This document shows, piece by piece, positions 34,507 to 60,751 of a DNA stretch of 64,000 bases. The translations under genes were made by a program, and so were the position numbers. Position 1 is the stretch's first letter, and each line of letters opens with the position of its first letter. Origin of the DNA: Pyrrhoderma lamaoense (lineage: Eukaryota > Basidiomycota > Agaricomycetes > Hymenochaetales > Hymenochaetaceae); the NCBI GenBank assembly GCA_002794735.1, contig NBAZ01000042.1, forward strand, positions 1-64,000, given 5' to 3'. Under the pieces are notes generated by a model. That model made no database searches. It saw only the letters and a program-made list of their open reading frames with translations, and had not been told where the DNA came from.

Positions 34507-36728
34507 TCACGGTTGACCATCGGGTCGCTGTTTGCGCTTTTGCCCTACTTGAGGATCAAGTAAGCTTCGCTCCTCTGGAGTACATAAATATGTTTGTTCT
34601 GCAGGGGATCCCTCGGAACTATAGGAGGTCAACGCAAGTCTTGATGCACCAGACGAATGCACATCGCTACTATTACTAGCACCACCTGTAGAGTGTATCA
34701 CATCAGGGATCCGTGGACGTTCCCCAGAGCCGCTCTGTCTTGAAGTAGATGCTAGGCTAGCAGCTTCTTCGGGAGAAGCTTCGTCCAAATGCTGTCCTGT
34801 CACTGTACCCTCTAACTTGGCCAGTGCCCTCTCATGTATGCGAATAATGTCAGAACGATCTTTCGAGATGTCCCTCTCCGCTTCATTGGTATTCATAGAA
34901 ACATGTATTAATGACCTTATATCCAAAAGATATTCCTTGAGCTTGATAAATTCCGGAGAGAGTTTCTCAAAAAACAGAGAAGTGTAGGACGCTTCTGAAG
35001 CAATAAATGAGCGCTTGAGTGAAGCACATGAGTTCATCTCCTTCTCTGTGTTGGTAGGACCCCATATATCCAGGGAATAAGCGCCTTTCTCCTCATTGCT
35101 GAGGAGCATACTACTACGATCGAGACATACCCATATAAGGGTATAAAATGTGGATTCCAGATCGTGGTAGAATTGGTGGACGAAGCCGCTTTTATTTGCT
35201 AAAACGTCTGCGGCCATAAATAGGGTCGTTCCCTTATAGATACAGTCAGTAGATGCAGATAACGAATGTTATTCACAAACTTTACCGTTCTCTGTTTCAC
35301 AGTTTCTAACGCATTCTCATCCGAGAGGTCCACAGCATGGTCAAAACCAATCAGGCAACCAGCTCTTTGACCATCTCCTGCATCCACGAGCATTATATTG
35401 CTATCACTTATATCACGATGCAAGATCTTTTTCTTCATTCCCAAGTCGATGATTGCTGTATCCTCCGTTAGCTAATTCAACCAGGAGTATGCAATTATAC
35501 ATTTAACATTACCAATAAAGATATCCCTGAAGGCGATCACCAGCTCCTTTGGCGTCTTGAAATCACTGATTGGCTGTCCCACAGTACTCAGTACCATTCG
35601 ATGATGTTCGCGAAGGGTCGTCTTCGAGTTTGAGCCCTCAACTCCTGGTCGAAATTTCCCTGTGTGATTTCCCATATACTGGTGTGCACACATAGAAGGA
35701 ACGTTCGGAAATCCCTTCAGCTTCTGTAGTATGTTATACTCCTTTATCTCATCATCCTCGTCTACCCAGCTATCCTTCACTATGTACTTCCGTAGTTCAT
35801 TCCCCTCCTTGTCCTCGTCACTCTTGAGACGACCACTACAGAGTCGGATTGTCGTCCCTCTCCCTACGATACTCTTAGAGCGGAACACGGTCTTCAAGAT
35901 CTCCAATTCCACTTCCTTGTCGTCAATCTGTTTAACAGTTACATATCGCTTCCCATCTCTTGTCTTGACGGACGTGTCAAGTCCCAGGTCCTTATCCTCT
36001 GCGAAAAGAACCCCGATTGCTATTCGCAGGAAGTCTTCCTTCTCCTTATGGATGTCGATCGGCATTGATCTAACCACACCAGAGCGGTCGTAGAGATACA
36101 TGACTAGGTTGGAATGTTTAAAAGCGAGAGCAAGCATCCAATCGCGATTATCCTGGAAGGTCAGGGTTTCGTGAACATAATTGGCTAACCCAGCGAGGAC
36201 ATCGTTATTGTTGCCCTTCTTGTCGAATTTAATCTCGCCGAAGGCGACGAAGGATAGCCAGTCATTTGGCTCACCCCCACTTCCAGCCGACTCAGCCACT
36301 GGTACGACAACAAGATCCGGCTTTAATTTTCGCCCTCCTTTCGGATAATTTTTATTAAAACGCGACGAGTACTCTCTCTTCTTCGTTAAGCCAGTCAGTT
36401 TTGCAAGCGCGAGCCCTATGTTGTTCAAAACATTACTAATCTTTTCTTCTCGCTCAGTGTCGGTTTGCGTTGGCCACCCGACCCAACGGTCACCAACAAG
36501 TAGTGGGTCCCTACCGTCAATTCGTAAGCCGAGACTTCTAGCCAACTCAGCCAGATTGGGTGAGTTGTCACCGTCAAGTTTTGACAGTGGATCCGGTCCG
36601 AATTTCTGCAAGAGGGTCGTAAAAGGATATTCTTGCATAGTCGGTATCAGCAATTCTTTCATCACCTCCTTCGCCTCCGCCACTTTCTTAGAAGTGAAGT
36701 CACTCGATTCGGCCGCTGACGAGTGCAT
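34507..36728 (-). CDS. FunK1 kinase copy 4 (N-type B, mid alpha, C-type 2), open reading frame
   Basis: One of the two copies open across all kinase exons: exons 36728-35513, 35455-35286 and 35232-34507 give 703 codons plus stop. Introns are 35512-35456 (57 nt) and 35285-35233 (53 nt). It starts at MHSSAAESSDF; the frame stays open upstream to an acceptor-like site (ATCTAG), so a further exon such as MNPGNPE near 36964 is possible. It has a VKDSW Lys, HRDISDSNIML, LIGFDHA (Asp changed to Gly), FYHDLESTFYTLIWVC and a Ser-rich tail ending KRKQRPDGQP. FunK1 kinases are fungal-specific and mostly of unknown substrate. Loss of the metal-binding Asp suggests weak or no catalysis, so it may be a pseudokinase. 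Confidence 0.85.
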
Positions 36729-36964
36729 CGGGTCGAGAGTGCTTTTCAGGACTTTAATGTCTCTCTGTTTTTCATTCTCTGAGCTTAAGCACTAGATCTT
36801 GTGACTGTTAACTTACTGTTGAAGCAGAACTTAATCGATAGTTGGAGGGTAGTGACCCTCGCTTCGAGCCTGAAGCTCCCTCCTAAGTAGTTGTATAGAT
36901 AAGTAAGTGGTTTGACAGACAATGATTGAGAATGTGTGCGCACCTCTGGATTCCCAGGATTCAT

Positions 36965-38405
36965 ATCGAGACTCGAGTGGTATAGATCGATGGGACACTG
37001 AGACACGGAGCGATATGGCAGTTATCTCGTTCTCTTCAGGGATTTCGAGCGCTGTGTTAGCAGGCGGGGGGAATGGTCTTGTTACCTGGGAAGAGAGGAG
37101 GCGCGGTGTTCTCGCTTTAAAGAGGGGTAGTAGGATTGATAATGAATATAGGTATACGAAGACTGACTCTATTATCCTGAATCTATTATGACTCTTCACG
37201 CATAATGCAGAAAGTATACAGAAGTCGATATTAATATAAGGCGATGCATGTGTATACAGTACGAGAAGCGTGTAGATGTCACTCGCCCCTAGAACATCCT
37301 TCACATCTAGCGCCGTGGTACATTGCGCGGTACCGGTGTACTTGACCCAGATGTATCTCCCGTATAGTCGGGTGTAATGTTGCAATGTTGCAGAGCCTGC
37401 AAATGGTTAGTACATATTTGTTTATGAGCAACGGAAACTGTGGCAGCACAGTCGCTGTTGAAAGATGGTAATCGGATTTCCTAACAGTAGAGTGAGGAAA
37501 TGTAAGGATTATGGATAGATGAATGGATAAGAAGTCTATTTCCCAAGCAGAGTTTGAGAACGTACTATAAACAGAGACAGAATGACTGCGATCGTGCAAT
37601 TCCCGTTCCGATTTCGGCAGCACATTCAATGGATATCGTAACGACAAGCTCGATCTCGAGTTCCAAAAAGACCCCCGAACACTGGAAGTAGACTTCTCCG
37701 TCTGCTCGCTATCTTGATGAAGCATGTGCGGTAGGGCAGGCTGAAGAAGCCTGCTGTTTCAAATATTCAGGATTCTACATCACGATGCAAACAAGACTTT
37801 CAAGGCAGATTCCAATCCCGTTCTGCAGAAAGCGAACCTGTCTGCCAACAGGATTAATAATACAGGGCACGTAAGTCAGCGATCGACATAAACCATAATT
37901 GGCACTTTTATTACACATGCTTGTATATAAATATAATGGGAAGGCCCCCCCTCCCCCACGCAGGAGTACCCTTCCAATGGTCTAATGTACCACACCTGGC
38001 GAAGCTCCTTAAACATGGTGGCCAACCCCGCAAGTCAAGGCGAGTATGGGAACCCCCTAATTTACCCAACCCTATCCCATCCCAGTATCTAAGAAATCTG
38101 ATTAGAAGCCTCAGCATAGTCCGACGGACTGATTTCTCCCCTTCTCTCTAGTGCTTAGACTTAGGGCCATTGTACTAATATACCAAAGCGCAGAACCACC
38201 ACGCAGAACACAACAAATACAAACTCTCTGTATATATTATGTAATTACACATACATAGAAGCTTTGTTTATCGAGCCTTTTTCAGGACATAGAATGACAG
38301 CGAGATTGATCATAGTGTTACACAAACAGAGCAGAAATAACCAAGAAAAAGAAGAAAAAGAAAAAAGAAGCGTAAACAGCACATAGTCAAGATATCTAAG
38401 GGCAT
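36965..38405. repeat. inter-cassette spacer, copy 2
   Basis: Minus-orientation copy of 2396-3838, including the GCAGGCT/AGCCTGC hairpin (about 37736-37754), the 148-codon frame (37279-37725) and the 184-codon frame (36831-37385). The second frame is longer here than in the other copies because the CTGTTAAC stop seen at 3741 is replaced by sequence that reads through. Confidence 0.65.
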
Positions 38406-40886
38406 TTAAAAAACAGGTACAAAATTACCCTTCTGCCTCTTCAATCCCTGGCCTACAAAGCTTCCCAGTCGACCATCGCGTCGCTGTTTGCGCTTTATCC
38501 CTGCTACAGGATGAAGTAAGCCCTGCCCCTCTGGAGTACATTTATTTGTTTGTTGTGCAGGGGATCCCTCGAAACTATAGGAGGTCAACGCAAGTCTTGA
38601 TGCACCAGACGAATGCACATCGCTACTATTACTAGCACCACCTGTAGAGGGTATCACATCAGGGATCCGTGGACGTTTCCCAGAGCCGCTCTGTCTTGAA
38701 GTAGATGCTAGGCTAGCAGCTTCTTCGGGAGAAGATTCGTCCAAATGCTGTCCTGTCTCTATAGCCTCTAACTTAGTAAGCGCCTCTTCATGAATCATAA
38801 GGATCTCTCTACGGTCCACGTGAATATCTTGTCTGAACCCTGTCTTTGGATCTGGCCATATGGCTGCGTCTATACGAGTGTGAAGAAAAGCTCGAATTTT
38901 TTGCAGGTATTCCTCGATACTGGCGAGCTCCGGAGAAAGATAATTTATAACTGAACAGCGAAATTCGTCTGGTAAACAAATATAAGTGTACTTCAAGAGA
39001 GCAGCCCTCCTCAGATCACTCCAAATAAAGTGTTCAGGAACCCATTGCTCCAGGATTGGAGAACTCCGAGGTTGTGGTTGGTCGATCTCTTTTCGCTTTA
39101 TGAACCACTTCAGACTACGATCGAGACAAACCCATATAAGAGTATAAAATGTGGATTCTAGATCATGGTAGTAATTGTGCACGAAGGTCTCTCGTTCTAT
39201 GAACACCCCGGCAGACATAAATGTGATCGTTCCCTTATAGATACAGTCAGTAGATGCAGATAACGAGTGTTATTCACAAATTTTACCGTTCTCTGTTTCA
39301 CAGTTTCTAACGCATTCTCATCCGAGAGGTCCACAGCATGGTCAAAATCAATCAGGCAACCAGCTCTTTGACCATCTCCTGCATCAATGAGCATTATATT
39401 GTTCTCACTTATATCACGATGCAAGATATTTTTCTTCATTTTCAAGTCGATGATTGCTGTATCCTCCGTTAGCTAATTCAACCAGGAGTATGCAATTATA
39501 CATTTAACATTACCAATAAAGATATCCCTGAAGGCGATCACCAGCTCCTTTGGCGTCTTGAAATCACTGATTGGCTGTCCCACAGTACTCAGTACCATTC
39601 GATGATGTTCGCGAAGGGTCGTCTTCGAGTTTGAGCCCTCAACTCCTGGTCGAAATTTCCCTGTGTGATTTCCCATATACTGGTGTGCACACATAGAAGG
39701 AACGTTCGGAAATCCCTTCAGCTTCTGTAGTATGTTATACTCCTTTATCTCATCATCCTCGTCTACCCAGCTATCCTTCACTATGTACTTCCGTAGTTCA
39801 TTCCCCTCCTTGTCCTCGTCACTCTTGAGACGACCACTACAGAGTCGGATTGTCGTCCCTCTCCCTACGATACTCTTAGAGCGGAACACGGTCTTCAAGA
39901 TCTCCAATTCCACTTCCTTGTCGTCAATCTGTTTAACAGTTACATATCGCTTCCCATCTCTTGTCTTGACGGACGTGTCAAGTCCCAGGTCCTTATCCTC
40001 TGCGAAAAGAACCCCGATTGCTATTCGCAGGAAGTCTTCCTTCTCCTCATGGATGTTGATCTTAGTTGATCTAACCACACCAGAGCGGTCGTAGAGATAC
40101 ACGACTAGGTCGGAATAACTGAAACCGAGAGCAAGCATCCATAAGCGGTCATCTTGTACGGAGAACGACTCGCAGACATAATGGCCTAATCCGGAGATTA
40201 CTTCATCATCACTAGTGTTAGTGGAAGATCTGATATCGCCAATTACGGCAAAGGATCCATTTCCATCCGAGTCAGCCTCTCCTGTCGTCGCCGCACCATC
40301 GCCCTTCGTGCCGTGCTTTATCTTCTCTTTGAATGGGATGACGACAAGATTCGGCTTTTGTATCCGACTTCCATTTGGTTTATAAGCACAATAATTCGCC
40401 GTGTACTTCCTCTTGAGTGGAATGTTACACTGGTCACTGATAGCTTGAGCAATACCATTCAATGCTTCTGCTATCTTCTCCTCTTGACCACTCTGAAATT
40501 TCGTTGGCCACCTGTCCCACAGTTCATTGACGGTCTCAGCCGTCCGCTCCTCCTGATCTGTCATCCTCCCTTCTCCCCACCCTCCAGCGATTGCACCCGG
40601 TTCACTTCCGACCTTGAGTTTGCTTGTCAGCATAGACAAGTTGGAGATTTCGCTATTAGTAAGAAAAGATGCATGATTAGGAATAATTTCTCGTAATAAA
40701 GTGTCGAGTGGAGATTCTTGTAAAGTAGACATCAAGGATCTCTTAAAAAACTCTTTAGCTATAAAGGCGCCTTCGTCGACCGACTCATAGCTTGACCTAA
40801 AGGAAGAGAGAGGCACGGAAGAAGGAAATTTCGGAAATTTCGTCGCACCATCTTCCTTTTGTTTTTAAGTTCTTTGAGCTTAAGCA
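38406..40886 (-). CDS. FunK1 kinase copy 5 (N-type A, mid alpha, C-type 1), open reading frame
   Basis: The best-preserved N-type A kinase. Exons 40886-40849 (reads CLSSKNLKTKGRW), 40796-39514, 39456-39287 and 39233-38406 join in frame to about 772 codons plus stop; introns are 52, 57 and 53 nt. The true first exon and ATG are not resolved: MNPGNPE near 40938 is in another frame. It keeps the VKDSW Lys, HRDISENNIML and LIDFDHA with Asp, so the catalytic residues look complete. The C-lobe reads GTITFMSAGV, then YYHDLESTFY. The tail has the conserved GQHLDESSPEEAASL block and ends KRQKGNFVPVF. It is predicted to be an active FunK1 Ser/Thr kinase; the substrate is unknown. Confidence 0.85.
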
Positions 40887-41275
40887 CTACATCTTGTGAT
40901 GTCGACTTACTACGCACCTCTGGATTCCCAGGATTCATATCGAGACTTGAGTGGTATAGAGCGATGGGACACTGAGACACGGAGCGATATGGCAGTTATC
41001 TCGTTCTCTTCAGGGAACTCGAGCGCTGTGTTAACAGACGGGGAGAAATGGTCTTGTTACCTGGGAAGAGAGGAGGCACGGTGTTCTCGCTATAAAGAGG
41101 GGTAGTAGGATCGATAATGAATATTATATACTATAGGTTATACGAAGAGTGTGAGAAGTTCGTCGCGCCACCAAACGGTTATCTAATTAGTGGGGAGGGG
41201 CAATTAGTGTTAAACCTGTGTGGAGTCGGCTAGTGCTCTAGCTGACTCCACATAAGTATCCTTAAGGTTATATAG

Positions 41276-41395
41276 TATCATCTATGTAGACCATTTTTTT
41301 TCTGTATTCTGGTCTGCTTAGGTCTACTTAGATGTCATAAAATTATATTCCCGTTGGTATATATATCAACCTTATTTTATTGATATGCCTATATA
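41276..41395. repeat. dispersed repeat, copy 1
   Basis: Aligns with 47040-47158: ATCATCTATGTA, GGTCTGCTTAGGTCT, CTTAGAT, ATATTCCCGTTGG and CAACCTTATTTTATTGATAT are shared with few changes. It lies next to the truncated end of the P450 pseudogene. Its nature is unknown. Confidence 0.6.
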
Positions 41396-43070
41396 CCGAC
41401 TACAAGTCATCGAGAGCGTCCCGATGCCATTGTCACGAAGGAAACTATCTACTTTGCGCAACTTTTGCATTGAAGCTTTTGTCCATCCTTCCGTCCCAGT
41501 CACTCGTTCAACTTCCTCGTGCATTGGTTGGGCATATTGCGGATTTGCTGCAAGGTGGAAAAGTGCATGTGTGAAGCTCTACATGAAGGAATCAGATATT
41601 AGATATTTGACATTCACTTGAAACAAGGATCTGAGTGTACCCACCATGGAGGTTGTGTGAATAGCGGAGAAGTTTAGAGTAAGCAAGCGCTGTGTGAGCG
41701 CGTATACTGTTCTCTGTTCACCCTCTGCCTCATCCATGAGCCAAGAAAGCATGTCAATCTGAAGGCTGATTCAGTAAGAATGTCATACGGTATATTGTAA
41801 GAACCGTCGTTAAACTCACGGGCTTGCCGGGTTAATCCGGACCATACTCATCAATGAGGGCTTGACGGTGCTCAATAATTGGCCTTAAGTGCTTCTCTGC
41901 TCGGCGAGTTGTAGCAGGCACTGAGGTTAGTGATTCGCCAACAAGACGTCCAAGACCATAAGTAAGGGCAGGTCAAGTGATTGTTATTAGTGAACCTACG
42001 GCTTTACAATGTCGGGAAACGGTTTGATGGTATTTGCAGCTTTAACAACATCGATTGTAAACCTTATATTTAGGTCCATGTAATCCTTATTGCGACCTAT
42101 TACCTGTTGATTAGTAGACATAAGGGAAGATAAGGAAGAAAGTATCATTACAAAGAGGTGGCCCAACGAAGACCTTGTTACTTGCACTACAGACTCTTTT
42201 CATCATAGTCCCAAGGGCTGGTTCCGACACCCAGCCTATACTATCGTTAGACATTGATCTTATGCAATATAATGAGAGCAGTGATACCATGGCTAGTTCC
42301 AACATATTCTTCAAAGCTAGCAATAATTTCATCCGTGATATCACTGAACAAAACTCCAATATTACGAGTAAGCTGTGAGCGAACTATAGGCATATGATAC
42401 TGGTTTCTATTGACTAAACGACCTAGAGTGAAATCTGCCGCAAGTCCCTACATGGCAGATAATTGTTTATAGATCAATCATCAATCCTACTTCAAATGTA
42501 GAGTTGGCTCACCTCACTGACAGCCTCGAGAAAAGATAGCTTGTCGTCAGGTGCACGACGGATTTCCTCAATCAACTCTGGAGTGTTAACGATCACAAGC
42601 CAACGCCCAAGTTCTGGCACTTTGAATGTTTGTGTCTTATACTAAGTTGTCCAAGTAAATGAATGATGTTAGTCACAAAGTAAGTGGTGACAGCATTTTC
42701 ATGACTCGCCTTCTCGTACCCTTCGGTTAACATGACACGCGGGTTCTTCAGAAACTTAAGTGCCCCGAGATACGATGATATCCTCCCGGATGGTCCTGTC
42801 GCTGGAACATTAATCTACAAACTGTTAACATTGCCATAAAAAGAGTGTTATAAATCATACGTCACGTTTTCGAGCGTTGAGATACTGCATAACAGTGAAT
42901 GCGACTGCGAGCGCGCACGTAGCGAGATATGTTCTATCATATCCACCGATATTGAGTAGATCGGTGGTAGGCAGCGAAGAGGCGAGAGAGGCATTGAACG
43001 CCATCTTGGAAAAGTCTCTTGGCCTTGTAGCTCTTGCAGGGGTGGGCGCGAGGCATTCTACCTTGTGAAA
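41396..43070 (-). pseudogene. cytochrome P450 remnant lacking ExxR and haem-binding region
   Basis: Minus-strand blocks match a fungal P450 in order: GGYDRTYLATCA and MQYLNARKR (about 42875-42960), then EIRRAPDDKLSFLEAVSE (about 42515-42570), PIVRSQLTRN with LFSDITDEI (about 42305-42390), NKVFVGPPLC (about 42140-42175), DLNIRFTIDVVKAANTIKPF (about 42000-42090), RRAEKHLRPIIEHRQALIDE (about 41850-41910), SWLMDEAEGEQRTVYALTQR with NFSAIHTTSM (about 41640-41755, I-helix region), and AANPQYAQPMHEEVERV with GTEGWTKA (about 41455-41560). The K-helix reads KVDSFLRDNGIGTLSMT, where families of this type have FLRESQRL; the ExxR is deleted. Homology ends at about 41396, before the FxxGxxxCxG haem loop. 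Without these parts it cannot work as a monooxygenase. Confidence 0.75.
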
Positions 43071-44800
43071 TCAAATACATTATATATGGTGAATAGTGGC
43101 ACAGAATTCGCATCGCATCAATGGGGTGAACACGGGCTACCCGGAGAGCTTCCGTGCGACGAAACCCTATTGTTTACTTCATAACATGCATAAGATTCCA
43201 GAGTGAAACACTCGCCATCAATCGTAGAGCTTAAAAATATCTGCATAGATCACTGAGAAACAAGCACTCTCACGGTGAATTCAGAATTGCTTCTTCCAAC
43301 ATTTCATTATTAGCTAATGCAAGTTCAACTTGAAGTTGCATATTTGACCGAGCAAGCTTCGGAGAAGCTTCTTACTCTGTCTGTGTTCAAGTGCTTGAAT
43401 GAGAATAGTACTTTTTTTATTGGCAACATCAGGCGACATAGAAGAGTGTGAGGATAGCAGGAGGAAAAGAAGGATGAGGCGGAGAGAGATAGAGAGAGAA
43501 GTGGCACAGCTTATAAAGGCGTCGACTTGGAACTAAAATATAATACTAGTATATCTTAAAATGAATAAAACTTATACTTTCAAACAACTTAGTCACGCGT
43601 TACTTACTTACTTTTGTAATGTGACCTACGTTATCAAAATTTTCTACGTAGACCTCACAAAGGTAAACGAAGGTATTCCTAGGTAATCTAGGTCTATTAT
43701 TTTTTATTGATCTTAATTTTAGGGTTTACGCAGATTGACGTAGAAGATCTTGGTAGACTGTGGAATACTTTACCACACAAATTCACACAGGTAATCTTTT
43801 AAAACCCTAAATGATGACTTTATTGACTCTACAAAGGTGATCTCAGTTGGCCTTTTGGGCGACTGAAAATTAATAATCTAGCTACGGTCGGCTAAGTAAT
43901 TGCTGACACGCCGTGATTGTAGCTGTAACATAGAAGAAAATATTTACAACACAGTTTCTGGTTACGGCTCTAAGGCGACCTTGTAGCTGGTATTCCAATC
44001 TTTAGTATGTCCAAGTTCCAGTACTTACTTAGTATTTGAAATATAATGATTTTTAAGGAGTTTTGTAAGTAGTTTATACTACTGCTTTTCACATATTCTC
44101 TATAATTCATCAGGGTTTCGAGGCCAGGCCCTTTACTTTTTGATTATCCTCACAATACATACCTATAGTCTCTTGATATTATATGTATAAATATATTTAT
44201 ACAAAAATTTTTTTTTGAAATATTGTGTTGAAAAAAAAATCGGAGTCGAAGTTTGAAAGTGTTGTTTGTGACGAGGGGACAGTATTTTTGCGCAAGACTA
44301 TAATTGCGTACAGTAGCTTGAAATGGAGAATGTCTTTCGGTCTGCATCTTGCGCTATCATAGATGCTGTTGGGGAAGGGTGCTATCAGCAATCTTGGTCT
44401 TGCTGCTCCCCGCATTGTTCTCCTATGCGTCACTTAAGCCGGTGCTACATGTCGTTTAGTACATGCATTCACTGATTTTCATATAGGGGCCCATCAAGTA
44501 CGAGGACACATATCGACCTGACAGTTCAAGGCGAGGAATAACACAACTACGTCTTCATTGTTTAGCTCCTTATTGTACAGATGGGTCTTACCTTCATTTC
44601 GGTAAAACTTGTATGGATCAATATTTTTCGAATTGCAAGTAATGGGCAATTGTACTAAATAGACGTTCCTGAGACAAACAAAATCATATATCAAACGACT
44701 GATTGATCGATCCCAAGTACACTACACGCGCCTCAATGACATACTCCTCTTCCCTTGTACCACTGTCGTCATCTTCTGATCGCAGTTGAGAAACTTGTTA
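43071..44800. other. intergenic region, no gene recognised
   Basis: AT-rich. The part near 43440-43535 (AGAGTGTGAGGATAG, AAGAAGGATGAGG, GGCACAGCTTATA) is related to 46855-46935, so the upstream flank of the P450 was also duplicated. Sequence near 43600-43860 has diverged CTAGGT/GACCTAC-type short repeats. No RNA gene is seen. Confidence 0.5.
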
Positions 44801-45168
44801 TTTGGGAGCTTCTACAAGTTCCCTCATTTTGACAAACTCCGCGATTCGCCGCTGATGAAAATCGTTGAGAGCCAAATAAAGCTTTACCAGCTTCTGAAGT
44901 TGATACGCATACGCTTCACTCGGTGATCCTTTTACAGGGGATAAACGTTGGCCATGGACCTTAATGAAGTCTGCAAGTTGCATAAGCTCAACATTAACTG
45001 TATGATGCTTTTAAAAGGAAAATAAAAATAAAAAATAAAAAATAAAAACAGAACAAGGACTCACATGTACCGGCCTGGTTTCGTTTTCAAAGCTCAAATA
45101 GGCGGGAAATAAGAAGTCCTTCAAGCTTTTCTTCGGCTTCACGAAACTCCCTATTAGTAGCCTCCATT
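44801..45168 (-). CDS. small helical hypothetical protein, probably two exons
   Basis: Not recognised. An upstream frame (MEATNREFREAEEKLEGLLI, near 45110-45168) is coiled-coil-like. A GTGAGT donor near 45063 and a TACAG acceptor near 45000 bound a T-rich intron of about 60 nt, after which NVELMQLADFIKVHG runs to VEAPK and a stop at 44801. The two exons need a frame change near 45092, so the gene may carry a one-base error or be decayed. It is Glu/Arg/Leu-rich with no signal peptide or membrane segment. Confidence 0.3.
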
Positions 45169-45755: not shown

Positions 45756-45944
45756 CGGCTTCTCCAGAAAAGTGTTTCCAGTAGGATAGATAAAACTCTA
45801 TCCTAATCAAGAAAGTGTTTGTTCACCTTAAGCGCCTCGTGCGCCTTCGAGGAGGCATCCAAGTAGTAATCTTTCTCGCTTGGGATACATGAACACAAGA
45901 GTCTGGTCTAGTCAAGGGATAGTAGAAGATTGTAAGGACCGTCA

Positions 45945-48190: not shown

Positions 48191-48300
48191 ACTGCCATAT
48201 CGCTCCGTGTCTCAGTGTCCCATCGCTCTATACCACTCAAGTCTCGATATGAATCCTGGGAATCCAGAGGTGCGTAGTAAGTCGACATCACAAGATGTAG

Positions 48301-50780
48301 TGCTTAAGCTCAAAGAACTTAAAAACAAAAGGAAGATGGTGCGACGAAATTTCCGAAATTTCCTTCTTCCGTGCCTCTCTCTTCCTTTAGGTCAAGCTAT
48401 GAGTCGGTCGACGAAGGCGCCTTTATAGCTAAAGAGTTTTTTAAGAGATCCTTGATGTCTACTTTACAAGAATCTCCACTCGACACTTTATTACGAGAAA
48501 TTATTCCTAATCATGCATCTTTTCTTACTAATAGCGAAATCTCCAACTTGTCTATGCTGACAAGCAAACTCAAGGTCGGAAGTGAACCGGGTGCAATCGC
48601 TGGAGGGTGGGAGAAGGGAGGATGACAGATCAGGAGGAGCGGACGGCTGAGACCGTCAATGAACTGTGGGACAGGTGGCCAACGAAATTTCAGAGTGGTC
48701 AAGAGGAGAAGATAGCAGAAGCATTGAATGGTATTGCTCAAGCTATCAGTGACCAGTGTAACATTCCACTCAAGAGGAAGTACACGGCGAATTATTGTGC
48801 TTATAAACCAAATGGAAGTCGGATACAAAAGCCGAATCTTGTCGTCATCCCATTCAAAGAGAAGATAAAGCACGGCACGAAGGGCGATGGTGCGGCGACG
48901 ACAGGAGAGGCTGACTCGGATGGAAATGGATCCTTTGCCGTAATTGGCGATATCAGATCTTCCACTAACACTAGTGATGATGAAGTAATCTCCGGATTAG
49001 GCCATTATGTCTGCGAGTCGTTCTCCGTACAAGATGACCGCTTATGGATGCTTGCTCTCGGTTTCAGTTATTCCGACCTAGTCGTGTATCTCTACGACCG
49101 CTCTGGTGTGGTTAGATCAACTAAGATCAACATCCATGAGGAGAAGGAAGACTTCCTGCGAATAGCAATCGGGGTTCTTTTCGCAGAGGATAAGGACCTG
49201 GGACTTGACACGTCCGTCAAGACAAGAGATGGGAAGCGATATGTAACTGTTAAACAGATTGACGACGACGAAGTGGAATTGGAGATCTTGAAGACCGTGT
49301 TCCGCTCTAAGAGTATCGTAGGGAGAGGGACGACAATCCGACTCTGTAGTGGTCGTCTCAAGAATGACGAGGACAAGGAGGGGAATGAACTACGGAAGTA
49401 CATAGTGAAGGATAGCTGGGTAGACGAGGATGATGAGATAAAGGAGTATAACATACTACAGAAGCTGAAGGGATTTCCGAACGTTCCTTCTATGTGTGCA
49501 CACCAGTATATGGGAAATCACACAGGGAAATTTCGACCAGGAGTTGAGGGCTCAAACTCGAAGACGACCCTTCGCGAACATCATCGAATGGTACTGAGTA
49601 CTGTGGGACAGCCAATCAGTGATTTCAAGACGCCAAAGGAGCTGGTGATCGCCTTCAGGGATATCTTTATTGGTAATGTTAAATGTATAATTGCATACTC
49701 CTGGTTGAATTAGCTAACGGAGGATACAGCAATCATCGACTTGAAAATGAAGAAAAATATCTTGCATCGTGATATAAGTGAGAACAATATAATGCTCATT
49801 GATGCAGGAGATGGTCAAAGAGCTGGTTGCCTGATTGATTTTGACCATGCTGTGGACCTCTCGGATGAGAATGCGTTAGAAACTGTGAAACAGAGAACGG
49901 TAAAATTTGTGAATAACACTCGTTATCTGCATCTACTGACTGTATCTATAAGGGAACGATCACATTTATGTCTGCCGGGGTGTTCATAGAACGAGAGACC
50001 TTCGTGCACAATTACTACCATGATCTAGAATCCACATTTTATACTCTTATATGGGTTTGTCTCGATCGTAGTCTGAAGTGGTTCATAAAGCGAAAAGAGA
50101 TCGACCAACCACAACCTCGGAGTTCTCCAATCCTGGAGCAATGGGTTCCTGAACACTTTATTTGGAGTGATCTGAGGAGGGCTGCTCTCTTGAAGTACAC
50201 TTATATTTGTTTACCAGACGAATTTCGCTGTTCAGTTATAAATTATCTTTCTCCGGAGCTCGCCAGTATCGAGGAATACCTGCAAAATATTCGAGCTTTT
50301 TTTCACACTCGTATAGACGCAGCCATATGGCCAGATCCAAAGACAGGGTTCAGACAAGATATTCACGTGGACCGTAGAGAGATCCTTATGATTCATGAAG
50401 AGGCGCTTACTAAGTTAGAGGCTATAGAGACAGGACAGCATTTGGACGAATCTTCTCCCGAAGAAGCTGCTAGCCTAGTATCTACTTCAAGACAGAGCGG
50501 CTCTGGGAAACGTCCACGGATCCCTGATGTGATACCCTCTACAGGTGGTGCTAGTAATAGTAGCGATGTGCATTCGTCTGGTGCATCAAGACTTGCGTTG
50601 ACCTCCTATAGTTTCGAGGGATCCCCTGCACAACAAACAAATAAATGTACTCCAGAGGGGCAGGGCTTAATTGATCCTCCAGCAAGGATAAAGCGCAAAC
50701 AGCGACGCGATGGTCGACTGGGAAGCTTTGTAGGCCAGGGATTGAAGAGGCAGAAGGGTAATTTTGTACCTGTTTTTTAA
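48301..50780 (+). CDS. FunK1 kinase copy 6 (N-type A, mid alpha, C-type 1), one frameshift
   Basis: Near-identical to the copy at 38406-40886. Exons are 48301-48338, 48391-49672, 49730-49899 and 49953-50780. It has HRDISENNIML, LIDFDHA, a complete C-type 1 region and a tail ending KRQKGNFVPVF. The only break seen is one G missing in a G run near 48609 (GGTGGGAG against GGTGGGGAG), which shifts exon 1. If that is a homopolymer error the gene is intact and probably encodes an active kinase; otherwise it is a pseudogene. The two introns that create apparent stops are standard and conserved. Confidence 0.75.
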
Positions 50781-52223
50781 ATGCCCTTAGATATCTTGAC
50801 TATGTGCTGTTTACGCTTCTTTTTTCTTTTTCTTCTTTTTCTTGGTTATTTCTGCTCTGTTTGTGTAACACTATGATCAATCTCGCTGTCATTCTATGTC
50901 CTGAAAAAGGCTCGATAAACAAAGCTTCTATGTATGTGTAATTACATAATATATACAGAGAGTTTGTATTTGTTGTGTTCTGCGTGGTGGTTCTGCGCTT
51001 TGGTATATTAGTACAATGGCCCTAAGTCTAAGCACTAGAGAGAAGGGGAGAAATCAGTCCGTCGGACTATGCTGAGGCTTCTAATCAGATTTCTTAGATA
51101 CTGGGATGGGATAGGGTTGGGTAAATTAAGGGGGTTCCCATACTCGCCTTGACTTGCGGGGTTGGCCACCATGTTTAAGGAGCTTCGCCAGGTGTGGTAC
51201 ATTAGACCATTGGAAGGGTACTCCTGCGTGGGGGAGGGGGGGCCTTCCCATTATATTTATATACAAGCATGTGTAATAAAAGTGCCAATTATGGTTTATG
51301 TCGATCGCTGACTTACGTGCCCTTGTATTATTAATCCTGTTGGCAGACAGGTTCGCTTTCTGCAGAACGGGATTGGAATCTGCCTTGAAAGTCTTGTTTG
51401 CATCGTGATGTAGAATCCTGAATATTTGAAACAGCAGGCTTCTTCAGCCTGCCCTACCGCACATGCTTCATCAAGATAGCGAGCAGACGGAGAAGTCTAC
51501 TTCCAGTGTTCGGGGGTCTTTTTGGAACTCGAGATCGAGCTTGTCGTTACGATATCCATTGAATGTGCTGCCGAAATCGGAACGGGAATTGCACGATCGC
51601 AGTCATTCTGTCTCTGTTTATAGTACGTTCTCAAACTCTGCTTGGGAAATAGACTTCTTATCCATTCATCTATCCATAATCCTTACATTTCTCACTCTAC
51701 TGTTAGGAAATCCGATTACCATCTTTCAACAGCGACTGTGCTGCCACAGTTTCCGTTGCTCATAAACAAATATGTACTAACCATTTGCAGGCTCTGCAAC
51801 ATTGCAACATTACACCCGACTATACGGGAGATACATCTGGGTCAAGTACACCGGTACCGCGCAATGTACCACGGCGCTAGATGTGAAGGATGTTCTAGGG
51901 GCGAGTGACATCTACACGCTTCTCGTACTGTATACACATGCATCGCCTTATACTAATATCGACTTCTGTATACTTTCTGCATTATGCGTGAAGAGTCACA
52001 ATAGATTCAGGGTGATAGAGTCAGTCTTCGTATACCTATATTCACTACCAATCCTACTACCCCTCTTTAAAGCGAGAACACCGCGCCTCCTCTCTTCCCA
52101 GGTAACAAGACCATTTCTCCCCGTCTGTTAACACAGCGCTCGAGTTCCCTGAAGAGAACGAGATAACTGCCATATCGCTCCGTGTCTCAGTGTCCCATCG
52201 CTCTATACCACTCAAGTCTCGAT
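50781..52223. repeat. inter-cassette spacer, copy 3
   Basis: Plus-orientation copy of 2396-3838 with the same hairpin (about 51433-51451). Two bases are lost near 51688, which shifts the 148-codon frame. Confidence 0.65.
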
Positions 52224-54708
52224 ATGAATCCTGGGAATCCAGAGGTGCGCACACATTCTCAATCATTGTCTGTCAAACCACTTACTTATCTATACAACTA
52301 CTTAGGAGGGAGCTTCAGGCTCGAAGCGAGGGTCAATACCCTCCAACTATCGATTTAGTTCTGCTTCAACAGTAAGTTAACAGTCACAAGATCTAGTGCT
52401 TAAGCTCAGAGAATGAAAAACAGAGAAACAAAAAGTCCGAAAAGCACTCTCACTCGTCAGCGGCCGAATCGAGTGACTTCACTTCTAAGAAAGTGGCGGA
52501 GGCGAAGGAGGTGATGAAAGAATGGCTGATACCGACTATGCAAGAATATCCTTTTACGACCCTCTTGCAGAAATTCGGACCGGATCCACTGTCAAAACTT
52601 GACGGTGACAACTCACCCAATCTGGCTGAGTTGGCTAGAAGTCTCGGCTTACGAATTGACGGTAGGGACCCACTACTTGTTGGTGACCGTTGGGTCGGGT
52701 GGCCAACGCAAACCGACACTGAGCGAGAAGAAAAGATTAGTAATGTTTTGAACAACATAGGGCTCGCGCTTGCAAAACTGACTGGCTTAACGAAGAAGAG
52801 AGAGTACTCGTCGCGTTTTAATAAAAATTATCCGAAAGGAGGGCGAAAATTAAAGCCGGATCTTGTTGTCGTACCAGTGGCTGAGTCGGCTGGAAGTGGG
52901 GGTGAGCCAAATGACTGGCTATCCTTCGTCGCCTTCGGCGAGATTAAATTCGACAAGAAGGGCAACAATAACGATGTCCTCGCTGGGTTAGCCAATTATG
53001 TCTACGAAACCCTGACCTTCCAGGATAATCGCGATTGGATGCTTGCTCTCGCTTTTAAACATTCCAACCTAGTCATGTATCTCTACGACCGCTCTGGTGT
53101 GGTTAGATCAACTGCCGATCGACATCCATAAGGAGAAGGAAGACTTCCTGCGAATAGCAATCGGGTTCTTTTCGCAGAGGATAAGGACCTGGGACTTGAC
53201 ACGTCCGTCAAGACAAGAGATGGGAAGCGATATGTAACTGTTAAACAGATTGACGACGACGAAGTGGAATTGGAGATCTTGAAGACCGTGTTCCGCTCTA
53301 AGAGTATCGTAGGGAGAGGGACGACAATCCGACTCTGTAGTGGTCGTCTCAAGAGTGACGAGGACAAGGAGGGGAATGAACTACGGAAGTACATAGTGAA
53401 GGATAGCTGGTAGACGAGGATGATGAGATAAATGAGTATAACATACTACAGAAGCTGAAGGGATTTCCGAATGTTCCTTGCATGTATTCATTCCAGCAAA
53501 TATCAGGTGACGGTACTGTACTGAACGGTTCAGACCGAAAGAAGAACAGGTTGAACAGGCCCGGACACCGAATTGGAGGAAGTACGGAAAAACGGCGTTC
53601 AACCCTCGTAAACATCATCGAATAGTACTGAGTGCTGCGGCACAGCCAATCAGTGATTTCAAGACGCCAAAGGAGCTGGTGATCGCCTTCAGGGATATCT
53701 TTATTGGTAATGTTAAATGTATAATTGCATACTCCTGGTTGAATTAGCTAACGGAGGATACAGCAATCATCGACTTGGAAATGAAGAAAAAGATCTTGCA
53801 TCGTGATATAAGTGATAGCAATATAATGCTCGTGGATGCAGGAGATGGTCAAAGAGCTGGTTGCCTGATTGGTTTTGAGCATGCTGTGGACCTCTCGGAT
53901 GAGAATGCGTTAGAAACTGTGAAACAGAGAACGGTAAAATTTGTGAATAACACTCGTTATCTGCATCTACTGACTGTATCTATAAGGGAACGACCCTATT
54001 TATGGCCGCAGACGTTTTAGCAAATAAAAGCGACTTCGTCCACCAATTCTACCACGATCTGGAATCCACATTTTATTCGCTTATATGCGTATGTCTCGAT
54101 CGTATAGTATGCTCCTCAGCAATGAGGAGAAAGGCGCTTATTCCTGGATATATGGGGTCCTACCAACACAGAGAAGGAGATGAACGCTTCTGCTTCACTC
54201 AAGCGCTCATTTATTGCTTCAGAAGCGTCTACACTTCTCTGGTTTTTGAGAAACTCTCTCCGGAATTCATCAAGCTCAAGGAATATCTTTTGAGCTATAA
54301 GTCATTAATACATGTTTCTATGAATACCAATGAAGCGGAGAGGGACATCTCGAAGATCGTTCTGACATTATTCGCATACATGAGAGGGCACTGGCCAAGT
54401 TAGAGGCTATAGAGACAGGACAGCATTTGGACGAAGCTTCTCCCGAAGAAGCTGCTAGCCTAGCATCTACTTCAAGACAGAGCGGCTCTGGGGAACGTCC
54501 ACGGATCCCTGATGTGATACACTCTACAGGTGGTGCTAGTAATAGTAGCGATGTGCATTCGTCTGGTGCATCAAGACTTGCGTTGACCTCCTATAGTTCC
54601 GAGGGATCCCCTGCAGAACAAACATATTTATGTACTCCAGAGGAGCGAAGCTTACTTGATCCTCAAGTAGGGCAAAAGCGCAAACAGCGACCCGATGGTC
54701 AACCGTGA
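52224..54708 (+). pseudogene. FunK1 copy 7 (N-type B, chimeric mid-module, C-type 2), multiply broken
   Basis: The N-type B exon is open to 53112, where one inserted base (CTGCCGATC) shifts the frame. Further single-base losses are near 53165, 53410, 53518 and 54355. The mid-module starts as alpha (VDEDDEI..EYN) and switches to beta (CMYSFQQISGDGT). Introns matching the 57- and 53-nt pair lie near 53712-53768 and 53941-53993. It has HRDISDSNIML and LIGFEHA (Gly for Asp). The number of indels makes this the most decayed full-length copy. Confidence 0.8.
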
Positions 54709-54745
54709 GACTCTGTAGGCCTGGGATTGGAGAAGCGGAAGTAAA

Positions 54746-55411
54746 GCTATGAAAATCTCAATGTCCTTTTGATTTACTATTTTTTTTACATGTAACTCGT
54801 AAACGTAGAAAATTCACAGTCTGAATAGAAGCGTTTCCACCTGTCATGCTACCTTTCGGTTACCTACTTAGAACTGGTTTGCGATGAGACGCGGCTCTAG
54901 TTAGCCCCTTTTATGGGGAGGGGCAATCCTCTTAAGAACCGCGAGTCAACTTTTTTCAGTTTCTTAGTCAGAATTTGTATTAAATAAGCAATTTTATCGA
55001 TAGGTTTATGTGACACTAGGTACACTTATTTCAGATGGATTTAATGATTCAATCAAGGCTCTTGGATTTATAATTAAAGGCTGAATAAAAAGAAAAATAG
55101 TCAAAAATTAATATATACTGCATAAAATAGCAAGTAAATAAAAAATAATAACTCAAAAGGACAGTATATTGAAGCTATAAGATAAGACACTCAAATTCTC
55201 ACGAAAATAATAAAATAAGATGTTCTGGGCTGCACGCGCGCTACACTGTCAGAGCCAGCGAGTTTTTTCCCTTGGCTGAAAAGCCATGGGTAGTCTTGTG
55301 AAACTCTGTCGTGTTGGGGATAGAGCATTGCAATTATTGCTCTTTGACAAGGAATTCCTTTTAACCATAAGTCGTCAGCTTGCATTGACTACGTCCATGC
55401 CTTTTGTACAC
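54746..55411. other. AT-rich segment of IR3 left arm, no gene recognised
   Basis: Contains GGGGAGGGGCAATCCTCTTA-type DNA near 54915 and a short frame (55191-55385, minus) that is duplicated at 57817-58011. The frame's product shows no family features. Confidence 0.5.
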
Positions 55412-55925
55412 TGTAGGACCAGCTAAGTGTGTAGCCAGTCGTAGTGCATTCATAATGCACTTTCTAACTCGCCCGGAAAGTCCATTGCTACTACTTGGCC
55501 GCGCGCCTGGTCCGTTTCTCCTATTATCTAGCTCGAGGATAGGGTTCGTTTATATGGTCCCCTCGTTTTTGATGGCTTAAACCCTTCGTCCAGTGGCATA
55601 TAGCCACCTGGATGCCATGCTTTCTTAATCATCTACCCTTTATCTCGCCTTTTGATATATAAGCCTCCAGACTTGAGGCCGTAGTAGATCACTCAATTCT
55701 CACTCAATTTCTCCCAATCAATATTATCTCTATCCCCCCCCTGTGTAGCTCTCTAATAGTCGCCTGTACTCTTTATCTACTACTCTGTTGTTTTATCAGG
55801 CTGCAACGCTCTGACCATACTGCAAGTCGTCCGGGCGGTCTGAAATACATACACTCTTATCTCAAACTACAGCCTCGGTCGGAGCTCCTTTCTATACGTT
55901 TCTACTGCTTTACAAGTTTGTGATG
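55412..55925 (+). mobile_element. LTR-like repeat, left copy of palindrome
   Basis: Starts TGTAGGACCAGC and has a perfect 8-bp-stem hairpin at 55443-55461 (AGTGCATT/AATGCACT). A TATATAAG element precedes CCTCCAG near 55658, and the element includes TACTGCAAGTCG. A diverged copy is at 22875-23275 and an inverted copy at 57277-57790. Homology between the two palindrome copies stops at about 55925/57277. Confidence 0.55.
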
Positions 55926-57276
55926 CCTCAGCTTGCCCCAAGGTCTCTATCAGTCTCTACGCTCCGGCCGAATCGAGTTACTCGCTTTTTAGCCCTCAAA
56001 TCTGAGCCAGAGCACCGTGTCTGGTGTAGACAGACTCTAAACCCCAAGTCCTCGCCACTAATAACGACTAAAAGGTCCAGCCCTGACCTAAGGTTAAGTT
56101 TTCACCGCGTTTACCTGTAATATCTGTAGGCACCCTACTAACGCGTCGGAGGGATACAGTGGCCATGTTCAAGAATGGAATAAGCATAGATACATCTGTG
56201 CAGCATGTTCCAGTAATGACTGACAGAACGCACTGTAGCGGCACAGCTTTACATTATTCACAGTGGCCCTGTCAGCGTGTAACATCTACAGAGTTACGAC
56301 TGGGGTTTCTGAATTTCTCAAAAGTACATCACTTACTAGTTGTTACATAAAGATTAATATCATAATGCGAGACTTCTTTCCCACTTTTTATCAATGATTC
56401 AGTCGTATGTAATCATTTTTTGTAGTGAAGTAGTTCATAGCTAGAGTCTGAAAGTGAAAATTTGACAGAAGTAATACTTCATATATATCAGTTCAAGATA
56501 TATACAACATAACGGTGCAAACACTTCTCTCAAAGTAAACATAAGAATTGTACATTAAGAACAAGTTGAAGTATCAGTGTTTCGAATCTAAGGAGTATAT
56601 GTTGTGAGTGCATGCGGATAAAATGAAGAAATCTATAAACTATATGCGCAGCTGACAAGTTGCTGATTTATAATAGATCACAAGAATCATTGGGTTACAT
56701 ATTCAATGATATTGCACTCGCATACGAGTTACTACAAGAGACATCGGAATAAATCAAAGAAAATAATATCTAAATATTCAACTTATATTAATGCGTTTTA
56801 AACTGCTAGTAATGAAACAATTATGTTGCTTTAAGCTGATATCGCAATACGAATTACATATATAAGTATTATCGTCTAAGCTATCTGGTAGTGAATCGTA
56901 CCCAACTTGAGATCTCTGAGATTATGAGTAAAGAAAAAAATAGCCAGGATAGGGCATCGGTCTCTGTTCCAAAAGAACTTACAGTGGATAACACTGGCAA
57001 GGAATGCGATAGTAGAAAAATTGAAGCATTAGGGAGAAACTTTCTTTCTTCCTCGAGTAGCTCACAGATCCAGGCTAACGTTAGTTCAATGAGTTATTCT
57101 ACGTGTATACAAAGGCTGATATCATTGTAATACTAAACATATCAACAGAATGCATCAGAGTAAGTTCCAAGACCGATCTGAAATAACGCTGCCCAAGATA
57201 CAGGTGGGATCTTCCAGATCAACTCCTCACGGGAGTCCTAGTTCGAGTGGACAACATCACCAAGAATCGATTGGTG
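55926..57276. other. single-copy loop of IR3
   Basis: 1.35 kb between the arms. The frames 56891-57130 (Ser/Lys/Glu-rich, MSKEKNSQDRASVSVPKEL) and 57150-57335 are separated by an intron-like GTATAC..TACTAAAC..CAACAG (44 nt), but the splice as read creates a stop. No retroelement polymerase or integrase domain is seen. Confidence 0.45.
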
Positions 57277-58492
57277 CATCACAAACTTGTAAAGCAGTAG
57301 AAACGTATAGAAAGGAGCTCCGACCGAGGCTGTAGTTTGAGATAAGAGTGTATGTATTTCAGACCGCCCGGACGACTTGCAGTATGGTCAGAGCGTTGCA
57401 GCCTGATAAAACAACAGAGTAGTAGATAAAGAGTACAGGCGACTATTAGAGAGCTACACAGGGGGGGGATAGAGATAATATTGATTGGGAGAAATTGAGT
57501 GAGAATTGAGTGATCTACTACGGCCTCAAGTCTGGAGGCTTATATATCAAAAGGCGAGATAAAGGGTAGATGATTAAGAAAGCATGGCATCCAGGTGGCT
57601 ATATGCCACTGGACGAAGGGTTTAAGCCATCAAAAACGAGGGGACCATATAAACGAACCCTATCCTCGAGCTAGATAATAGGAGAAACGGACCAGGCGCG
57701 CGGCCAAGTAGTAGCAATGGACTTTCCGGGCGAGTTAGAAAGTGCATTATGAATGCACTACGACTGGCTACACACTTAGCTGGTCCTACAGTGTACAAAA
57801 GGCATGGACGTAGTCAATGCAAGCTGACGACTTATGGTTAAAAGGAATTCCTTGTCAAAGAGCAATAATTGCAATGCTCTATCCCCAACACGACAGAGTT
57901 TCACAAGACTACCCATGGCTTTTCAGCCAAGGGAAAAAACTCGCTGGCTCTGACAGTGTAGCGCGCGTGCAGCCCAGAACATCTTATTTTATTATTTTCG
58001 TGAGAATTTGAGTGTCTTATCTTATAGCTTCAATATACTGTCCTTTTGAGTTATTATTTTTTATTTACTTGCTATTTTATGCAGTATATATTAATTTTTG
58101 ACTATTTTTCTTTTTATTCAGCCTTTAATTATAAATCCAAGAGCCTTGATTGAATCATTAAATCCATCTGAAATAAGTGTACCTAGTGTCACATAAACCT
58201 ATCGATAAAATTGCTTATTTAATACAAATTCTGACTAAGAAACTGAAAAAAGTTGACTCGCGGTTCTTAAGAGGATTGCCCCTCCCCATAAAAGGGGCTA
58301 ACTAGAGCCGCGTCTCATCGCAAACCAGTTCTAAGTAGGTAACCGAAAGGTAGCATGACAGGTGGAAACGCTTCTATTCAGACTGTGAATTTTCTACGTT
58401 TACGAGTTACATGTAAAAAAATAGTAAATCAAAAGGACATTGAGATTTTCATAGCTTTACTTCCGCTTCTCCAATCCCAGGCCTACAGAGTC

Positions 58493-60751
58493 TCACGGTT
58501 GACCATCGGGTCGCTGTTTGCGCTTTTGCCCTACTTGAGGATCAAGTAAGCTTCGCTCCTCTGGAGTACATAAATATGTTTGTTCTGCAGGGGATCCCTC
58601 GGAACTATAGGAGGTCAACGCAAGTCTTGATGCACCAGACGAATGCACATCGCTACTATTACTAGCACCACCTGTAGAGTGTATCACATCAGGGATCCGT
58701 GGACGTTCCCCAGAGCCGCTCTGTCTTGAAGTAGATGCTAGGCTAGCAGCTTCTTCGGGAGAAGCTTCGTCCAAATGCTGTCCTGTCACTGTACCCTCTA
58801 ACTTGGCCAGTGCCCTCTCATGTATGCGAATAATGTCAGAACGATCTTTCGAGATGTCCCTCTCCGCTTCATTGGTATTCATAGAAACATGTATTAATGA
58901 CCTTATATCCAAAAGATATTCCTTGAGCTTGATAAATTCCGGAGAGAGTTTCTCAAAAAACAGAGAAGTGTAGGACGCTTCTGAAGCAATAAATGAGCGC
59001 TTGAGTGAAGCACATGAGTTCATCTCCTTCTCTGTGTTGGTAGGACCCCATATATCCAGGGAATAAGCGCCTTTCTCCTCATTGCTGAGGAGCATACTAC
59101 TACGATCGAGACATACCCATATAAGGGTATAAAATGTGGATTCCAGATCGTGGTAGAATTGGTGGACGAAGCCGCTTTTATTTGCTAAAACGTCTGCGGC
59201 CATAAATAGGGTCGTTCCCTTATAGATACAGTCAGTAGATGCAGATAACGAATGTTATTCACAAACTTTACCGTTCTCTGTTTCACAGTTTCTAACGCAT
59301 TCTCATCCGAGAGGTCCACAGCATGGTCAAAACCAATCAGGCAACCAGCTCTTTGACCATCTCCTGCATCCACGAGCATTATATTGCTATCACTTATATC
59401 ACGATGCAAGATCTTTTTCTTCATTCCCAAGTCGATGATTGCTGTATCCTCCGTTAGCTAATTCAACCAGGAGTATGCAATTATACATTTAACATTACCA
59501 ATAAAGATATCCCTGAAGGCGATCACCAGCTCCTTTGGCGTCTTGAAATCACTGATTGGCTGTGCCGCAGCACTCAGTACCATTCGATGATGCTTACGAG
59601 GGTTGAACGCCGTTTTTCCGTACTTCCCCCAATTCGGTGTCCGGGCCTGTTCAACCTGTTCTTCTTTCGGTCTGAACCGTTCAGTACCGTCACCTAATCT
59701 TTGCTGGAATGAATACATGCAAGGAACATTCGGAAATCCCTTCAGCTTCTGAAGTATATCACGCTCTCGTGACCAATCGGTCACCTCTATCCAGCTATCC
59801 TTCACTATGTACTTCCGTAGTTCATTCCCCTCCTTGTCCTCGTCACTCTTGAGACGACCACTACAGAGTCGGATTGTCGTCCCTCTCCCTACGATACTCT
59901 TAGAGCGGAACACGGTCTTCAAGATCTCCAATTCCACTTCCTTGTCGTCAATCTGTTTAACAGTTACATATCGCTTCCCATCTCTTGTCTTGACGGACGT
60001 GTCAAGTCCCAGGTCCTTATCCTCTGCGAAAAGAACCCGGATTGCTATTCGCAGGAAGTCTTCCTTCTCCTTATGGATGTCGATCGGCATTGATCTAACC
60101 ACACCAGAGCGGTCGTAGAGATACATGACTAGGTTGGAATGTTTAAAAGCGAGAGCAAGCATCCAATCGCGATTATCCTGGAAGGTCAGGGTTTCGTGAA
60201 CATAATTGGCTAACCCAGCGAGGACATCGTTATTGTTGCCCTTCTTGTCGAATTTAATCTCGCCGAAGGCGACGAAGGATAGCCAGTCATTTGGCTCACC
60301 CCCACTTCCAGCCGACTCAGCCACTGGTACGACAACAAGATCCGGCTTTAATTTTCGCCCTCCTTTCGGATAATTTTATTAAAACGCGACGAGTACTCTC
60401 TCTTCTTCGTTAAGCCAGTCAGTTTGCAAGCGCGAGCCCTATGTTGTTCAAAACATTACTAATCTTTTCTTCTCGCTCAGTGTCGGTTTGCGTTGGCCAC
60501 CCGACCCAACGGTCACCAACAAGTAGTGGGTCCCTACCGTCAATTCGTAAGCCGAGACTTCTAGCCAACTCAGCCAGATTGGGTGAGTTGTCACCGTCAA
60601 GTTTTGACAGTGGATCCGGTCCGAATTTCTGCAAGAGGGTCGTAAAAGGATATTCTTGCATAGTCGGTATCAGCAATTCTTTCATCACCTCCTTCGCCTC
60701 CGCCACTTTCTTAGAAGTGAAGTCACTCGATTCGGCCGCTGACGAGTGCAT
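58493..60751 (-). pseudogene. FunK1 copy 8 (N-type B, mid beta, C-type 2), two one-base losses
   Basis: Aligned with the open copy at 34507-36728, this copy lacks one T near 60424 and one T near 60375, both in T runs, which break exon 1 (ORF 60419-60751, then 59458-60324). The rest is open: introns 59498-59442 and 59271-59219, HRDISDSNIML, LIGFDHA (Gly for Asp) and a C-type 2 tail ending KRKQRPDGQP. The mid-module is beta (CMYSFQQ, then RFRPKEEQVEQARTPNW), whereas its direct-repeat partner has alpha. If the T losses are assembly errors it would encode a full-length FunK1-like protein. Confidence 0.8.

Follow-up and report, generated by a model that had tools for sequence, protein, structure and literature searches.

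Mosaic FunK1 kinase genes formed by recombination in a palindromic array of Pyrrhoderma lamaoense

Results

Nine FunK1 copies and their mosaic structure

The stretch analyzed here (the window) is the initial 64 kb of the 94,911-bp contig NBAZ01000042.1 (contig C42) of Pyrrhoderma lamaoense, from assembly GCA_002794735.1 (72 contigs, 30.65 Mb). It contains eight copies, labeled A to H, of one subfamily of FunK1 kinase genes (PF17667), a family reportedly first described from Coprinopsis cinerea; a ninth copy, I, lies elsewhere on the contig (Table 1). Their membership in FunK1 is beyond doubt: the Pfam profile PF17667, with a cut-off of 24.1 bits, matches B with 186 bits (1.2e-54), exon 1 of D with 159 bits (1.8e-46), and exon 1 of E with 150 bits (1.1e-43). 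The copies are mosaics made by recombination. It should be noted that the contig names C1, C2, C6, etc. are distinct from the C-terminal types C1, C2, and C3 defined below.

In the nine-copy alignment, the N-terminal part is of two types, N1 (B, D, G, H, I) and N2 (A, C, E, F), which are 67–69% identical to each other. The mid-kinase module is likewise either alpha (A, C, D, E, F, with no differences within the type) or beta (B, H, I), with 64–66% identity between types; G is a hybrid. An earlier note on this DNA had recognized both pairs of alternatives correctly, and had counted two C-terminal regions where the alignment has three: C1 (D, G, H), C2 (A, E, F), and C3 (B, C, I). These diverged blocks are connected by joint 1 (276 alignment columns, 98.5–100% identical across all nine copies) and joint 2 (136 columns, 99.3–100%), the latter containing intron 1, and the catalytic part is 95–100% identical across copies. 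All four combinations of alpha or beta with C1 or C3 occur (D, C, H, and B/I), and to this extent the genes are combinatorial, as had been proposed; the term is nevertheless an overstatement, since seven of the nine copies retain a parental pairing of N-terminus and module, N1-beta (B, H, I) or N2-alpha (A, C, E, F). Only D and G are non-parental in this respect, and N2-beta is found in none of the nine. Copy G has alpha at the 16 informative sites of columns 1267–1300 and beta from column 1324, which bears out the switch inside the module described for this copy; the switch point falls in a stretch common to alpha and beta.

Copies D and H

The clearest exchange is seen between D and H, whose aligned blocks (34441–37925 and 58427–61950) span 3,526 columns. 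Confined to a single 438-bp tract of D are 67 mismatches and 39 gap columns, whereas the remaining 3,049 columns hold 12 mismatches, all at 37139–37860, and four gap columns; between 34441 and 37138, the differences beyond the tract are three single gap columns only. Upstream of the module, the successive counts of identical positions are 548/548 (with two gap columns), 311/311, and 274/275; within the module they are 121/188, with 39 gap columns; past the module, there are no mismatches down to 34441. The two copies are thus near-identical from flank to flank with the module swapped, as the note had claimed, with module coordinates that were right within a few bases.

Synonymous differences follow the same boundaries. 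Between D and H, the differences per sites are 0/60.7 in the N-terminal part, 0/62.2 in joint 1, 27/41.8 in the module, 0/13 in joint 2, and 0/165.7 in the C-terminus; synonymous divergence (dS) is 1.48 and nonsynonymous divergence (dN) 0.36 in the module, with dS of zero in the N-terminal part, joint 1, and the C-terminus. For D and E the pattern is 28.2/61.2 (dS 0.72), 0/62, 0/41.7, and 0/13 (dS 0 in joint 1, module, and joint 2), and 58.7/166.3 in the C-terminus (dS 0.48).

Tests of recombination

Among 328 informative sites of the nine copies, 9,079 of 53,628 site pairs are incompatible. A statistic modeled on the pairwise homoplasy index (PHI-like) is 0.050, compared with 0.170 for shuffled sites, and none of 1000 site-order shuffles gave a value as low; the Hudson–Kaplan minimum number of recombination events is 30. 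The recombination detection that the earlier note had called for thus gives a positive answer. Its argument would have failed had every segment given the same tree, but in approximately unbiased (AU) tests the trees of the N-terminal part, the module, and the C-terminus were each rejected on the other segments, in six of six comparisons (largest p 1.1e-5). Adjacent segments therefore have conflicting trees, and synonymous divergence is near zero in sharp-ended tracts that include an intron, as in a mosaic multigene family shaped by ectopic gene conversion. The PHI-like shuffles, the minimum number of events, and the AU tests rule out a chance resemblance of the copies.

The joints

Joint 1 of contig C42 is only 65–68% identical to that of six paralogs on contig C2 and 59–60% to that of a paralog on contig C6. 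For intron 1, identity is 68–79% to five contig C2 paralogs (P735 is too short) and 53% to the contig C6 paralog. In the same comparison, both regions are 98–100% identical among the contig C42 copies, and dS drops from 0.7–1.5 to 0 at the joints. The joining DNA, described earlier as almost invariant, is indeed so within the array, but it is homogenised DNA, not constrained or otherwise special; constraint does not explain the joints because the contig C2 paralogs diverge in both joint 1 and intron 1. Selection on the DNA or protein of these stretches, with the copies being old paralogs that vary in their middle, is practically untenable: although joint 1 is also fairly similar in protein sequence to the contig C2 paralogs, six copy pairs have no synonymous difference over about 62 sites next to regions with dS of 0.7–1.5, joint 2 contains an intron, the contig C2 paralogs differ at 32–35% of joint 1 DNA, and the segment trees conflict. 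The synonymous counts refute conservation of the joints by selection.

Origin of the modules

Alpha and beta have a dN/dS ratio of 0.24 (D and H) or 0.29 (B and E; dS 1.33, dN 0.38), well below the value of 1 above which adaptive diversification would be indicated. The synonymous proportions for N1/N2 (28/61) and alpha/beta (27/42) do not differ significantly (p 0.07), so a single old paralog split can account for both. Since the contig C2 paralogs are alpha-like by motif (V-D...KEY/KEH...MCTH..MG...REH), alpha looks like the form of the family, and beta like the odd one. In a genome search with beta, 11 of 22 matches lay off contig C42, all at 29–49% identity and thus none a close relative; the same search found no donor carrying alpha or beta only. 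Programmed cassette switching would involve an expressed locus with silent donors, or dedicated recombination sites; the copy alignments, beyond which no search was made, show no repeat confined to the ends of the module.

A second mosaic cluster

Another FunK1 cluster lies on contig C2, at 656–665 kb and 725–741 kb. The N-terminal halves of its copies P725 and P729 are 34–52% identical to those of P656, P660, and P739, whereas the cores are about 85–95% identical. For these five of the six copies (P735 was excluded, its stretch being cut), the PHI-like statistic is 0.116, compared with 0.145 shuffled (0/1000). This cluster is independently mosaic, so that in this genome FunK1 clusters exchange blocks habitually, and the exchange is no device specific to the alpha/beta module.

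Catalytic residues

The HRD motif (ILHRDIS) is intact in all nine copies. At a site that probably corresponds to the DFG motif, A, B, E, and F have DF[D/E], as do the six outside paralogs checked (five on contig C2 and one on contig C6); C, D, G, H, and I (5/9) have GF[D/E]. The Gly site is at contig positions 33406 in C, 53871 in G, 59334 in H, and 93615 in I (outside the window). Working kinases normally need the DFG Asp. Judged by this residue, the activity of the five Gly copies is in doubt, and they may be pseudokinases. Asp occurs with alpha in A, E, and F and with beta in B, while Gly occurs with alpha in C and D and with beta in H and I; the Asp/Gly change itself has thus passed between module types. 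Frameshifts are present in A, G, H, and I. They cannot be read as marks of pseudogenes because of indel noise in the assembly: in 4,029 aligned bases, H and I show a single mismatch against 18 gap columns, and an EF1-alpha gene elsewhere in the genome seems to contain a frame-breaking indel.

Palindromes and block junctions

Large palindromes form a chain along contig C42, with arms of about 5–14 kb that are 98–99.7% identical, and FunK1 copies consequently face one another in both orientations. This is the setting expected for conversion and for inversion crossovers. Copy C starts exactly where the 3' flank of D departs from the flank shared by G and H (34441), and this C/D junction is the product of unequal exchange or insertion. 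Another block junction, at 2876/37925/51262/61950/91001, carries a 53-bp sequence common to five FunK1 upstream regions. In the one whole copy examined, this sequence is the interior of a miniature inverted-repeat transposable element (MITE), which measures about 187 bp and has terminal inverted repeats of 29 bp. A transposon carrying the FunK1 gene was for this reason rejected: the element marks a break point and does not carry the gene.

Genomic surroundings

Among the 120 matches listed for an EF1-alpha gene of the genome, the highest identities (88–90%) are to Stereum, Armillaria, Phellopilus, and Leucocoprinus, indicating an agaricomycete as the most likely source. The FunK1 family is greatly expanded in the genome. 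A PF17667 search gave at least 117 exon-level matches (107 of 490 first-look candidates scored). Three more distant FunK1 places are found on contig C42, at about 71.1–71.9, 74.0–75.7, and 81.1–82.0 kb, and a further FunK1 gene cluster on contigs C29/C31/C37. A segment within the 3' part of copy C (33000–33307) also occurs on contig C1 (297768–298075, 94%), beyond the FunK1 arrays known here. Protein searches returned two, then three, distant FunK1 relatives, too few for a family-wide comparison, and a search of a plasmid collection gave no match. Among other features, the open frame 10309–11172 encodes an OrsD domain (PF12013, E 5.6e-10); its neighbor, a 604-aa open frame (11210–13024), has no Pfam match. 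The block 20807–23251 recurs at contig positions 76913–79388 with 86–88% identity.

Table 1. Features of contig C42 discussed in the text; positions are those of the window unless stated otherwise
Feature	Position	Strand	Remarks
FunK1 copy A	1–2400	+	N2-alpha-C2; cut by contig start; alpha module 1035–1222
FunK1 copy B	4012–6074	+	N1-beta-C3; 541-aa open frame from 4012; beta module 5026–5258
FunK1 copy C	32819–34442	-	N2-alpha-C3; 5'-truncated; adjoins 3' end of D; alpha module 33636–33823
FunK1 copy D	34507–36791	-	N1-alpha-C1
Gly codon GGT of D	35346–35348	-	in place of the putative DFG-equivalent Asp; by motif
Joint 2 in D	35442–35577	-	holds intron 1; 99.3–100% across nine copies
Alpha module of D	35578–35765	-	188 bp identical to A and C; no difference from E, F
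Exchanged tract, D versus H	35578–36015	-	limited by neighboring informative sites to 35475–36046
Joint 1 in D	35766–36040	-	98.5–100% across nine copies; 0 synonymous differences in six counted pairs
FunK1 copy E	38406–40864	-	N2-alpha-C2; alpha module 39579–39766
FunK1 copy F	48391–50780	+	N2-alpha-C2; alpha module 49420–49607
FunK1 copy G	52397–54741	+	N1, hybrid alpha to beta, C1; module 53411–53641; switch between 53448 and 53472
FunK1 copy H	58493–60814	-	N1-beta-C1; beta module 59564–59790
FunK1 copy I	92134–94490 of contig C42 (outside window)		N1-beta-C3
Palindrome	arms 1–10866 / 28058–40796		two aligned pieces, 97.8% and 98.1%
Palindrome	arms 35696–40996 / 48191–53479		99.0%
Palindrome with G and H in arms	arms 51262–55926 / 57276–61950		97.9%; spacer 1349 bp
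Largest palindrome, reaching past window	arms 59102–73078 / 79874–93847		99.7%
53-bp sequence (MITE interior)	37868–37921, 2881–2933, 51267–51319, 61893–61945		eight further matches elsewhere in genome

Discussion

The patchwork of the FunK1 genes is real, and nothing in these results establishes a dedicated machine for generating diversity. In our opinion, the mosaic is probably explained by gene conversion together with crossover within the palindrome chain, the partners being diverged FunK1 lineages, two or three in number. The copies would go back to as many FunK1 paralogs, between which DNA identity had dropped to about 63–67%. Copies arranged in palindromes and tandem pairs, in inverted and direct orientation, would recombine with one another; repeated gene conversion, together with crossovers that shift kilobases of flank, would homogenise the joints and move other stretches, leaving the old blocks (N1/N2, alpha/beta, C1/C2/C3) in new combinations. 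Thus, D would be a gene with H-like ends that received a C/E-like tract of about 440–570 bp bearing the alpha module, and G would hold an alpha tract that stops partway through the module. Exchange would have made the joints identical and would also use them as its homology arms, and no adaptive purpose would be required. For the tract that distinguishes D from H, conversion is likely rather than a double crossover. We infer both the direction of transfer and a lack of selection for swapping.

Several points weigh against this explanation. A conversion and a double crossover are indistinguishable for a single tract, and the outer block junctions of D (the 3' end at 34441 and the upstream one at 37925) indicate that crossovers or insertions took part too. 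Of the 36 copy pairs, 24 are significant (p < 0.01, uncorrected) in a permutation test of the longest shared run, a test that is inflated by rate differences along the gene, and the other 12 pairs (H, I, and B against A, E, and F; A, E, and F mutually) lack a significant run. In the C-terminus, nonsynonymous to synonymous changes are 18:2 between A and E and 8:0 between E and F, which may speak against an absence of selection, albeit on few changes. Finally, the analysis covers one assembly of one strain.

The earlier note had suggested gene conversion exchanging cassettes, which might diversify a surface of the kinase domain. The exchange of segments stands, on the AU rejections and the fall of dS to zero; the cassette system and its surface-diversifying role are not supported. 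Under such an adaptive alternative, selection would favor N-termini, modules, and C-termini combined in new ways, with the module forming an interaction or regulatory surface near the αC helix, β4, and the β4–β5 loop. The swapped block is compact and changes length in frame, lying by motif between the β3 lysine region (YIVKD) and the hinge (QPISDF); because solved structures match the C-lobe only (the best example chain is the casein kinase Yck2, E 1.3e-6), its position in the N-lobe is assigned by motif. The recent differences among A, E, and F are mostly nonsynonymous, and N- and C-termini evolve fast in the contig C2 cluster as well. Nevertheless, the A/E/F excess amounts to few changes, dN/dS between alpha and beta is 0.24–0.29, parental pairings of N-terminus and module prevail, and the six contig C2 copies are similar in the module (85–98%). 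The five copies without the DFG-equivalent Asp include both D and H, the contig C2 cluster is also mosaic, beta has no close relative off contig C42, and the joints are simply homogenised. An adaptive cassette system is thus possible but unsupported, and we consider it improbable. It is a doubtful, speculative proposition, too, that the array is a conversion-driven repertoire joining exchangeable regulatory modules and tails to an intact or DFG-less core, which would yield kinase and pseudokinase signaling variants for use, for example, in self/non-self recognition among fungal individuals.

An artefact of assembly, in which the consensus or the contigs jumped from one near-identical copy to another while being built, could draw on the indel noise noted above (the 18 gap columns between H and I, the EF1-alpha indel) and on the fact that the contig begins inside copy A. 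However, the switched blocks are 64–67% identical and do not collapse in a consensus, several copies show switches, at positions that differ, and the FunK1 cluster on contig C2 is mosaic as well. On this internal evidence, assembly switching appears a very unlikely cause.

Passages of PMC3203195 link the diversity of FunK1 to duplications specific to single lineages and to an enrichment of the family in non-syntenic regions. The expansions in Coprinopsis cinerea, Paracoccidioides, and Coccidioides concern the same family, PF17667, and are lineage-specific and clustered, as in P. lamaoense; segment exchange between copies, seen here, is not mentioned in those passages, and our literature search found no publication joining FunK1 with gene conversion. 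The wtf meiotic drivers of Schizosaccharomyces are likewise a fungal multigene family for which gene conversion is discussed as a mode of evolution (excerpts of PMC11497594 and PMC9562144), but they are spore killers unrelated in sequence to FunK1, and no drive function is known here. In human Y-chromosome palindromes, inverted repeats with similar arms as here, gene conversion keeps the arms alike in tracts of up to kilobases (excerpts of PMC3723533 and PMC5591018). The arms in P. lamaoense are 98–99.7% identical, compared with above 99.9% in the human palindromes; moreover, several palindromes here share arms, and genes swap blocks between diverged lineages.

Few fungal gene families are as large as the FunK1 kinases, and few are so poorly understood. 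Should FunK1 clusters evolve through the exchange of blocks within palindromes, trees of whole FunK1 genes would be unreliable, and individual copies could not be called orthologs. Losses of the catalytic site would then also be transferable between copies. D and H provide a clean natural test, being two versions of one gene whose differences are almost confined to some 63 aligned codons in the N-lobe of the kinase.

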